A DNA stretch of 33,143 nucleotides from Acidobacteriota bacterium (GTDB lineage Bacteria; Actinomycetota; Thermoleophilia; Miltoncostaeales; Miltoncostaeaceae): contig JAGWYY010000004.1 in assembly GCA_018969105.1 (NCBI GenBank), forward strand, positions 1 to 33,143, given 5' to 3'. This document shows, piece after piece, positions 16,662 through 19,845 of the stretch. The position numbers and the translations under genes are program-made. The notes under the pieces were generated by a model that saw only the letters and a list, made by a program, of their open reading frames with translations, was not told the DNA's origin and searched no databases. Numbering within the stretch: position 1 is the stretch's first letter; every line of letters begins with the position of its first letter.

Positions 16662-17906
16662 CTATGCCAGGCCCGGCGCGCTGTCGTCCATTGCGCGCAC
16701 GCTCGGGGTGGCCAGCACCATGAGCACGTTGGCGAATACCGCGGCCACTGCCAGCCACATGGTGCCGGCGAGGCCGATGCCGGTGATGATCGCGCCGGCC
16801 AGGGCGAAGCCGATGGGCTGGCACACCTGGCTGCCGAGGGCGCGGAACGAGCCGACGCGCGAGCGGAGGTCGGGGGTGACCTGCCGGGTGATGGTGGTCT
16901 CGAGCAGGCTCCCGGAGATGATGATTACCGTGCCGCCGAGCCATGCGAGCGCGGCGATCACGGCCACGGGTGCCGGGATCGACAACGCGATGAACGTGCC
17001 GACGAATGGCAACGTGATGGCGTAGGCCAGCACCAGCGGGCGCCTCGGCGAGAGCCTGGCCACCACGAGTCCCCCCGTGATGAAGCCGAGCCCGAAGCAC
17101 GTGATGATGGTCGCCCACGACGACGCGCCGCCCAGGGAGTCCTCGGCCACGAGCGGGCCGCCCACGAAGATCGCCGGCATCACCAGCAGCGCGTAGAACG
17201 ACTCGCCCACCACCACCACCACCAGCCATGTGCGCCGGCGGAAGGCATCCCACCCCTCGCGAAGATCAGCGAGGAACGACCGGCCCGCCTCGGCCATCGC
17301 CACCGTCCGGAAGCGCGCGAAGGCCAGCAGGCCGATGGCCACCACGAAGGTGGCGGCGTCGATGGCGATCGCGCCCGCGGGAGAGATGAGCGCCACGGCC
17401 GTGCCGCCGAGGATGCCGCCGAGCGTCATGCCCACGGCCGGCGTGATGGCGATGAGCCCGTAGGCCTCCTGCAGGCGCTCCGTCGATACCGACTGCGGCA
17501 CGATGCCCGACAGCGCGGGCCGGAAGAACGCCTCTGCCGATCCGTAGACGAACATGATCGCGACGATCGCCCACACGCCACCGACCCCCATGAAGAGGAT
17601 GGCGGCGAACGCCGCCTGGCAGGCGGCACGCACGCTGTCGCTGGCGATCATCACCGTGCGGCGCGAGATGCGATCGGACCACACGCCCCCGACCAGCAGG
17701 AAGAGCACGAGGGGTACGGCCCGGGCACCCAGCACCAGGCCGATGTCCCCGGCCCCGCCACCCAGGGCGAGGATCGCGAACGGCACCGCCACCGACGCCA
17801 CGGTGTCGCCGATGGCGCTGAGCAGCTGCGACGTGAACAGCAGGCGGAACGACTGCTCGCGCAGGCATCCGACGCCGGGTAGCGCGAGGGACGGCATCAC
17901 CACCAC
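16662..17906 (-). CDS. MFS transporter (EntS-like exporter type)
   Basis: LREQSFRLLFTSQLLSAIGDTVASVAVPFAILALGGGAGDIGLVLGARAVPLVLFLLVGGVWSDRISRRTVMI. Confidence 0.85.
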   Translation of the reverse strand: MVVMPSLALPGVGCLREQSFRLLFTSQLLSAIGDTVASVAVPFAILALGGGAGDIGLVLGARAVPLVLFLLVGGVWSDRISRRTVMIASDSVRAACQAAFAAILFMGVGGVWAIVAIMFVYGSAEAFFRPALSGIVPQSVSTERLQEAYGLIAITPAVGMTLGGILGGTAVALISPAGAIAIDAATFVVAIGLLAFARFRTVAMAEAGRSFLADLREGWDAFRRRTWLVVVVVGESFYALLVMPAIFVGGPLVAEDSLGGASSWATIITCFGLGFITGGLVVARLSPRRPLVLAYAITLPFVGTFIALSIPAPVAVIAALAWLGGTVIIISGSLLETTITRQVTPDLRSRVGSFRALGSQVCQPIGFALAGAIITGIGLAGTMWLAVAAVFANVLMVLATPSVRAMDDSAPGLA

Positions 17907-17943: not shown

Positions 17944-17983
17944 GGCGATGGTCGGCCCGATCAGGCGATGGTGATCCCGATCA
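17944..17983. repeat. Two-unit 20-bp tandem repeat at the 3' end of the rhodopsin gene
   Basis: GGCGATGGTCGGCCCGATCA / GGCGATGGTGATCCCGATCA, with the start of a third unit. Confidence 0.6.
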
Positions 17984-18694
17984 GGTGGTCCCGGGACGCG
18001 CGGCCTCGAGCACCTTCCGGTTGGAAAGCAGCAGGAAGCCGAACCCGACCTTGGCGATCAGGTCGATGATGGCGAACGTCGCCACCTCGCCGGTGATGCC
18101 GATGACGTTGAAGCCCTCGGTACCGAGCAGCCAGAGGATCGGATAGATGGTCCAGAGGATCGCCAGCAATATCGCCAGCTGGTTGAACTTCGATCTGACC
18201 TCTGGAGGTCGCTGCTTCGCGGCCTTGAGGATCTCGGCCAGCAGCACCCACAGCAGCCAGATGAAGACGAGGCTGCTCACGATGAACCACACGTAGCGGA
18301 GGTTCGTCGAGGTGACGCCGGCGAAGAAGCCGGTCGCGATCATCAGCACGTCCAGGCCCAGCAGCCAGACGATGGCCTCCATGGTGGCCCCGGCGAGAAG
18401 CGCGAGGTCGAGCAGGAGGAGCGGGGTCGTGAAGAACCAGTCGACATACCGCGCCCAGTAGAAGGGCTCGGCCAACTCCTGGCCCTCGCGGAGGATCGGG
18501 AACCAGCCCTGCTTGAGGGCCATCGCCAGATAGGCGATTGCGGCGATCCCCGCCACGAAGAAGGTGATGGTGTGGAACCAGCGGTTGCCGGGCTTCTCCC
18601 GGGCCGCCATGTACAGGAAGACAAGTGCACCGAGCGCCATGCCGATCGTGCCAATCCAGAGCCAGATCTGCACCGCGTCTGAGGGCTCAACCAT
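17981..18694 (-). CDS. Type-1 (microbial) rhodopsin, bacteriorhodopsin-like outward proton pump
   Basis: Helix C YWARYVDWFFTTPLLLLDLALL (BR R82, D85, T89, D96); helix F ILWTIYPILWLLGTEG; helix G FAIIDLIAKVGFGFLLL (D212, Schiff-base K216); E194 and E204 equivalents also present. Confidence 0.95.
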   Translation of the reverse strand: MVEPSDAVQIWLWIGTIGMALGALVFLYMAAREKPGNRWFHTITFFVAGIAAIAYLAMALKQGWFPILREGQELAEPFYWARYVDWFFTTPLLLLDLALLAGATMEAIVWLLGLDVLMIATGFFAGVTSTNLRYVWFIVSSLVFIWLLWVLLAEILKAAKQRPPEVRSKFNQLAILLAILWTIYPILWLLGTEGFNVIGITGEVATFAIIDLIAKVGFGFLLLSNRKVLEAARPGTT

Positions 18695-18864: not shown

Positions 18865-19845
18865 TCAGGCCAGGTTCGCCAGCCAGGCGGAGGCCAGGTC
18901 GGACACCACGTCCACGCACCCCGTGAACACGTGATCGGCCTGCGTCACCACGTCGAGCAGCACGTCGTCGTTGCCCGCCGCCGCGGCCACGCTCAGCAGG
19001 TCGTAGCCCTCCCCCGGCTGGATCAGGTGGTCGTTCCCCGCCTGCAGGATCGCGATGGGCACCCTCACCTTGCCGATCTGGTCGCGGCTCACCGCGTGCG
19101 GCGACTCCGGCCCGCGCGACGACCACCACGTGGCGTACGTCCAGATCTCGCCGTTCTCGGGAGTGGGCCGCGGCCCGTTCGCGCGCATCACCGTGAAGAT
19201 GCGGTCGCCCGGCGGGTCGTCGGGATCCTCCGCCACGACCTCCCGCGCGTAGTCGGCCACCACCTCGTACGACGGCGTGGCCCCGTAGCGCTGCCACCGC
19301 AGGCGCAGGGCCTCGGGCAGCGACGCCGGGTGCGCGATGGTGAGCAGCCCCACCACCTCGGGCGCGTCGGTGTTGGCGATGAAGTTGGTGCACACCGTGC
19401 TGCCCATGCTGTAGCCCAGCAGCACCACGCGATCGAACCCGTTGGCCCGGGCCACCTCGAGGGCCGCCTCGAGGTCGAGAGGCGTCTTGTGGAACAGCCC
19501 GCCGCCGAAGAACGGGCCGTAGTTGGCCAGCCGCGTGTTGATGGTCATCACCGGGAAGCCGTCCTCGGCCAGCTCGAACGCCACGCGCCGGGGCACGCCC
19601 GTGAGGTAGTTGCCCACCGATCCGTGCACCACGATCACCAGCAGGCGCCGGAACGCCGGATCGCCGAAGCGCGGGCGCAGCAGCAGGCCGTCCCACTCGT
19701 GCCCGTCGGCGGGCTTCAGCGTGACCAGCCGGGTGGAGATCTCGCGGTCGTCGCGCCCGAAGGCGGGGCGCCGCCGGATGCGATGCGCCTGGCCCGCACG
19801 CGGCGCCCCCTCGCGCGGCCCCCCGCCGCCGCGGCGCGTGCTCAC
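18865..19845 (-). CDS. Alpha/beta hydrolase (paralog 1)
   Basis: VVHGSVGNYLTGVPRRVAFELAEDGFPVMTINTRLANYG; nucleophile elbow GYSMGS; TWWSSRGPE; AGNDHLIQPG; QADHVFTG. Start GTG 19845 overlapping the paralog 2 stop; exact start uncertain. Confidence 0.8.
   Translation of the reverse strand: MSTRRGGGGPREGAPRAGQAHRIRRRPAFGRDDREISTRLVTLKPADGHEWDGLLLRPRFGDPAFRRLLVIVVHGSVGNYLTGVPRRVAFELAEDGFPVMTINTRLANYGPFFGGGLFHKTPLDLEAALEVARANGFDRVVLLGYSMGSTVCTNFIANTDAPEVVGLLTIAHPASLPEALRLRWQRYGATPSYEVVADYAREVVAEDPDDPPGDRIFTVMRANGPRPTPENGEIWTYATWWSSRGPESPHAVSRDQIGKVRVPIAILQAGNDHLIQPGEGYDLLSVAAAAGNDDVLLDVVTQADHVFTGCVDVVSDLASAWLANLA

Follow-up and report, generated by a model that had tools for sequence, protein, structure and literature searches.

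Bacteriorhodopsin (BR)-type phototrophy in actinobacteria has so far been known mainly from Rubrobacter. The rhodopsin of Rubrobacter xylanophilus (RxR, PDB 6kfq) pumps protons outward in E. coli (PMC5349596) and absorbs at 541 nm, and mutagenesis has assigned D74 as the proton acceptor, D85 as the donor, E187 and E197 as the release group, and D205 as the counterion partner that assists (PMC6959264). Here we compare with this system a rhodopsin gene located at 17981..18694 on the minus strand of the window, the whole 33,143-nucleotide stretch of DNA analysed. RxR comes from a thermophile whereas the present host is an aquatic actinobacterium, yet the two proteins share 48% identity, the same R, D, T, D, E/E, D, K proton path, and Phe at BR position 138. 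A BR-type pump in actinobacteria is already known from Rubrobacter; the present protein adds a separate deep clade and a probable dependence on retinal from elsewhere. Our literature search, outside of which lay subscription journals and preprints, found nothing joining Miltoncostaea with rhodopsin, and the parts available to us of papers on Thermoleophilia and Gaiellales do not describe the host group.

The rhodopsin gene and its predicted fold

The open reading frame starts with ATG and encodes 237 residues (N-terminus MVEPSDAVQIW), predicted to form a BR/RxR-type DTD proton pump. The protein matches the type-1 rhodopsin family PF01036 with 201.5 bits (E=1.6e-59; cut-off 24.6 bits), and the gene, which has no internal stop, is the only PF01036 match in its genome, a 1.87 Mb MAG that is 94% complete. 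The GC content at the three codon positions (0.58/0.42/0.92) identifies it as a real gene. Its overall GC of 64% is lower than the 71–73% of the neighbours, but its third-position GC is similarly high, the pattern expected for a membrane protein. Comparison with nine relatives in the genus gave dN/dS values of 0.07–0.17, and the gene is thus under purifying selection across the genus. A scan for a promoter and a terminator of the gene gave no signal above chance.

The AlphaFold2 model, built from a 34-row alignment, has a mean pLDDT of 92.1 and shows seven helices with a BR-type B–C hairpin. A structure search with this model returned deltarhodopsin and BR as the best PDB matches, with TM-scores mostly between 0.85 and 0.95. 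RxR was the best PDB match by sequence (E 7.8e-55) and was absent from the best 50 fold matches listed. The Pfam score, the codon-position GC, the dN/dS values, and the confident seven-helix model together exclude a chance reading frame. The initial annotation had, without naming a strand, placed a proton-pump rhodopsin here in an apparently actinobacterial chromosome; the gene is indeed real, and it lies in a MAG of Miltoncostaeales-type Thermoleophilia.

The BR proton path is retained

Residues were numbered through an alignment with BR, RxR, deltarhodopsin, archaerhodopsin-2, XR, GR, Kin4B8, and ClR, in which the BR reference matches PDB 1o0a letter for letter. At the BR positions the protein carries R82, D85, T89, L93, D96, D115, F138, W182, Y185, P186, W189, E194, E204, D212, and K216. 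R82, the acceptor D85, T89, and the donor D96 lie in the helix C motif RYVDWFFTTPLLLLD (18407..18451, minus strand), and D115 in helix D is encoded at 18350..18352. Further along the same strand follow the codons of the proton-release pair, E193 (BR E194, RxR Glu187; 18116..18118) and E203 (BR E204, RxR Glu197; 18086..18088) (PMC6959264), of the second counterion D211 (BR D212; 18062..18064), and of the retinal Schiff-base lysine K215 (BR K216; 18050..18052). The protein also retains T46, to which D96 is hydrogen-bonded in BR (PMC10154332). All elements of the DTD signature (Asp acceptor, Thr, Asp donor, R82, and D212) are hence present together with the extracellular release pair. The alignment with BR is gap-free through helices C–D and F–G; nearby, there is just a single-residue gap, in the loop that follows helix D. 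All the residues listed in the initial annotation sit where it had placed them, including Leu at position 93 and, at 138, Phe rather than the Gly of carotenoid-binding xanthorhodopsins. The proton-path residues are invariant in the 11 tabulated sequences of the genus and mostly so in 34 BR-like relatives. Haloarchaeal BR, archaerhodopsin, and deltarhodopsin likewise share the residues, the fold, and the B–C hairpin (39–47% identity), but they have Trp at BR 138, where the rhodopsin of this aquatic bacterium has Phe.

Because the residues of the RxR mechanism all have counterparts here, an outward, green-absorbing proton pump is to be expected. By analogy, the protein very probably works like RxR and is charged with scavenged retinal; retinal binding, outward direction, green absorption, and retinal uptake are what we infer from these comparisons. 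In such a pump, all-trans retinal would be held by K215, and its isomerization by light would send the Schiff-base proton to D85. E193 and E203 would let a proton go to the outside, and D96 would reprotonate the Schiff base before regaining a proton from the cytoplasmic side. For an aquatic heterotroph, the proton motive force built up in this way would add to what respiration provides.

Distribution in the genus and retinal supply

A PF01036 match was found in 13 of the 20 sampled members of the host genus. Seven members have none, and one of the genes found is internally deleted (G007; L011/L128, G007:C66): in-frame deletions leave 161 aa, with the central stretch and the retinal lysine gone. 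This gene is a decayed allele or an assembly artefact. These seven absences and the deleted gene indicate that the pump is dispensable. No type-1 rhodopsin was found in the other genera of the family sampled; a weak match in one genome of the family (L036 in G029) is a heliorhodopsin, and another heliorhodopsin occurs in the same class (L035 in G046). The rhodopsins of the genus member G006 (Miltoncostaeales) and of L003 are identical. Two sequences titled Bifidobacterium breve (L006 and L010) encode rhodopsins 79–84% identical to the Thermoleophilia protein, with the same neighbours, and these titles look wrong.

The retinal-forming enzyme Blh/Brp (PF15461) is absent from the host genome and from 17 of the 18 other members of the genus scanned, and is missing in 11 of the 12 rhodopsin-positive genomes scanned; it is present in G013 only. 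RPE65-type enzymes were found in none of 16 genomes of the genus scanned, including that of the host. The number of PF00494 genes in the 16 genomes is two in 14 of them, one in G011, and three in G013. The two in the host are the hopanoid-type squalene synthases HpnC and HpnD, the latter scoring 0.7 bits under its own cut-off but adjoining HpnC and a squalene-hopene cyclase gene, and they were thus rejected as phytoene synthases of a carotenoid pathway; a similar tandem spacing recurs in the other genomes. As the host genomes are MAGs, gaps could account for part of these absences, although ten members whose rhodopsin is near-intact reach 65–97% completeness and all of them are without Blh. 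From the gene content, the host and nearly all of the genus appear to have no recognizable route to beta-carotene and retinal. Retinal is therefore probably taken up from other organisms, most likely so throughout the genus except in G013; Rhodoluna lacicola (PMC7734400) and Saccharibacteria (PMC9296517) offer precedents. A synthesis route that is not recognized is also possible by analogy with Aurantimicrobium minutum, which makes retinal without known genes (PMC7734400).

The exception, G013, comes from the Black Sea. Directly after a rhodopsin 3' end lie genes for a CrtI-family desaturase, the third PF00494 protein, Blh, and a lycopene cyclase, arranged as crtI-crtB plus a convergent blh-crtY (L124, G013:C106:30000-42291). 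The rhodopsin is split over contig ends, and a near-identical 3' end on another contig runs into the MFS transporter gene (L126, G013:C7:1-6000; also L125). G013 thus either has two rhodopsin copies or combines strains that carry the cassette with others that lack it.

The lack of recognizable retinal genes and the patchy occurrence in the genus also fit an apoprotein that, deprived of retinal, seldom if ever works in nature and is heading for loss. We consider this very unlikely, because the low dN/dS across the genus and the invariance of all key residues speak against it. Moreover, Rhodoluna lacicola, which lacks blh, pumps when retinal is added and only then, Aurantimicrobium pumps natively (PMC7734400), and the rhodopsins of Saccharibacteria need no more than 30 s to bind retinal supplied to them (PMC9296517).

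Gene neighbourhood

The gene is flanked on the same strand by an MFS transporter gene (16662..17906) and, upstream, by a conserved alpha/beta hydrolase gene (18865..19800) with no known link to the pump. The usual order, seen in most members with enough flanking sequence, is racemase, two alpha/beta hydrolases, rhodopsin, and MFS transporter. The MFS gene lies beside the rhodopsin in most of the genus and is kept in two members without it, G003 and G010. In G010 a SAM methyltransferase gene fills the slot between the hydrolase and MFS genes (L132:6273-7055, G010:C185), and in G003 the start of the contig before the MFS gene resembles the end of a similar gene. In L003:2379-5705 the order is changed to hydrolase-MFS-rhodopsin. 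An operon of rhodopsin with the MFS gene was rejected on these grounds, and the transporter is probably not part of the rhodopsin system. The retention of the MFS gene without rhodopsin and the reordering in L003 indicate that the rhodopsin gene is accessory and occupies a semi-conserved position outside any fixed operon.

The neighbourhood also bears on whether the protein could be a light sensor with a BR-like fold instead of a pump, since the fold, D85, D212, and K216 are common to sensory rhodopsins (rows L103 and L105 of our alignment). No transducer gene lies beside the rhodopsin, and the donor D96 and the release pair E194/E204 are retained, whereas the two haloarchaeal sensory-type rows have Tyr at position 96 and have lost at least one release Glu. 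The chance that this rhodopsin is a sensor therefore seems slight; chloride-pump and sensory functions were both rejected in the motif comparison because the motif differs.

Phylogenetic placement

In two unrooted trees (82 and 66 rows), the BR side was split from the xanthorhodopsins and actinorhodopsins with support of 100/100, and the rhodopsin fell on the BR side. The rhodopsins of the host genus form a deep clade of their own with 11 rows (100/100 or 100/99). The best tree joins this clade with other Thermoleophilia at weak support (48/84). AU tests did not reject joining it with the haloarchaea (p 0.348) or with Rubrobacter (p 0.158), although the best tree places it elsewhere and an exclusive sister relation to RxR lacks support. 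The family f19 was named Rubrobacter-type because its row L040 lies at zero branch distance from RxR; Blh occurs in seven of the eight genomes tested in this family, unlike in the present host. The initial annotation had pointed to the BR-like clade with Rubrobacter rhodopsin as the bacterial precedent. This agrees with the position in the trees and with RxR as the nearest solved sequence, but the genus does not group specifically with RxR.

The type-1 rhodopsin tree that had been proposed together with that annotation also settled the position relative to the actinorhodopsins: holding the host-genus clade together with them cost 153 log units, and this placement was rejected (p about 1e-84). 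Joining the host-genus clade with all xanthorhodopsin-type rows gave p 0.207, which does not support membership because in an unrooted tree this asks only whether the clade branches deepest within the BR side. An ordinary actinorhodopsin or xanthorhodopsin-type pump, possibly with a carotenoid antenna, would also pump protons outward, as predicted here, and is the kind that most freshwater actinobacterial rhodopsins represent, several of them in the same phylum, but it is hardly credible for this protein, which has an Asp rather than a Glu donor, keeps the E194/E204 pair that is missing in XR, GR, and Kin4B8, has Phe in place of the Gly that forms the carotenoid fenestration in antenna types, carries IAAIAYLAM without a His where helix B of those pumps has the His of the IAGYHYF motif, and is 22% identical to XR.

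A donor switch among Thermoleophilia rhodopsins

The Asp donor of the host genus is not shared throughout its class. The remaining Thermoleophilia families in which type-1 rhodopsins occur (f3, f5, f7, and f8) have Gly at the donor position, accompanied by His42 and Ser46 in BR numbering. These DTG rhodopsins (L068-L086) are 37–41% identical to the present protein, lie on the BR side, and keep E194/E204, but have G96/H42/S46 in place of D96/F42/T46. Among the BR-like rows, Asp96 occurs with Phe or Tyr at 42 and Thr46 in 30, Gly96 with His42 and Ser46 in 21, and Thr96 with His42 and Gly46 in one. The Gly96/His42/Ser46 pattern was seen in most of the other BR-like Thermoleophilia rhodopsins (L068-L086, L013, L052, and L053), and the coupling may trace back to no more than one or two events in evolution. 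In mirror proteorhodopsins, too, a pair of histidines on the cytoplasmic side, H32 and H33, is conserved, and a further one, H37, at the T46 position, is the proposed donor (PMC10154332); counting from H37 = T46, the pair corresponds to BR 41 and 42. From the sequence pattern, His42 is a candidate relocated proton donor that would act alongside a BR-type release pair. Blh was found in three of four f8 genomes and in none of the eight genomes tested in f3, f5, and f7. Taken broadly, the data may describe a deep, separate radiation of BR-type rhodopsins in Thermoleophilia, divided between an Asp donor and a relocated Gly/His donor, with the host genus living on scavenged retinal; we offer this picture tentatively and regard it as somewhat improbable as a whole.

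Several other rows of the alignment depart from the BR pattern. The rhodopsin of a Natrialbaceae MAG (L015) has Gln at both R82 and D85, and in that of Halohasta salina (L019) the retinal lysine is replaced by Thr. Type-1 rhodopsins from Micromonospora and Pseudokineococcus (L014 and L021) carry Pro instead of D212, together with Ala96 and Glu42, and their genomes also hold a rhodopsin with an NDQ motif (L097 and L098).

Implications

BR-type phototrophy would thus extend beyond Rubrobacter to aquatic Thermoleophilia. Judging by their sample names, some relatives may live in estuaries, in lakes, and in the Black Sea, and the gene content suggests that cells of the host genus depend on the retinal of their neighbours. 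The switch between Asp and Gly at the donor position, together with the coupled residue in helix B, occurs within one class and so provides natural pairs for tests of donor movement.
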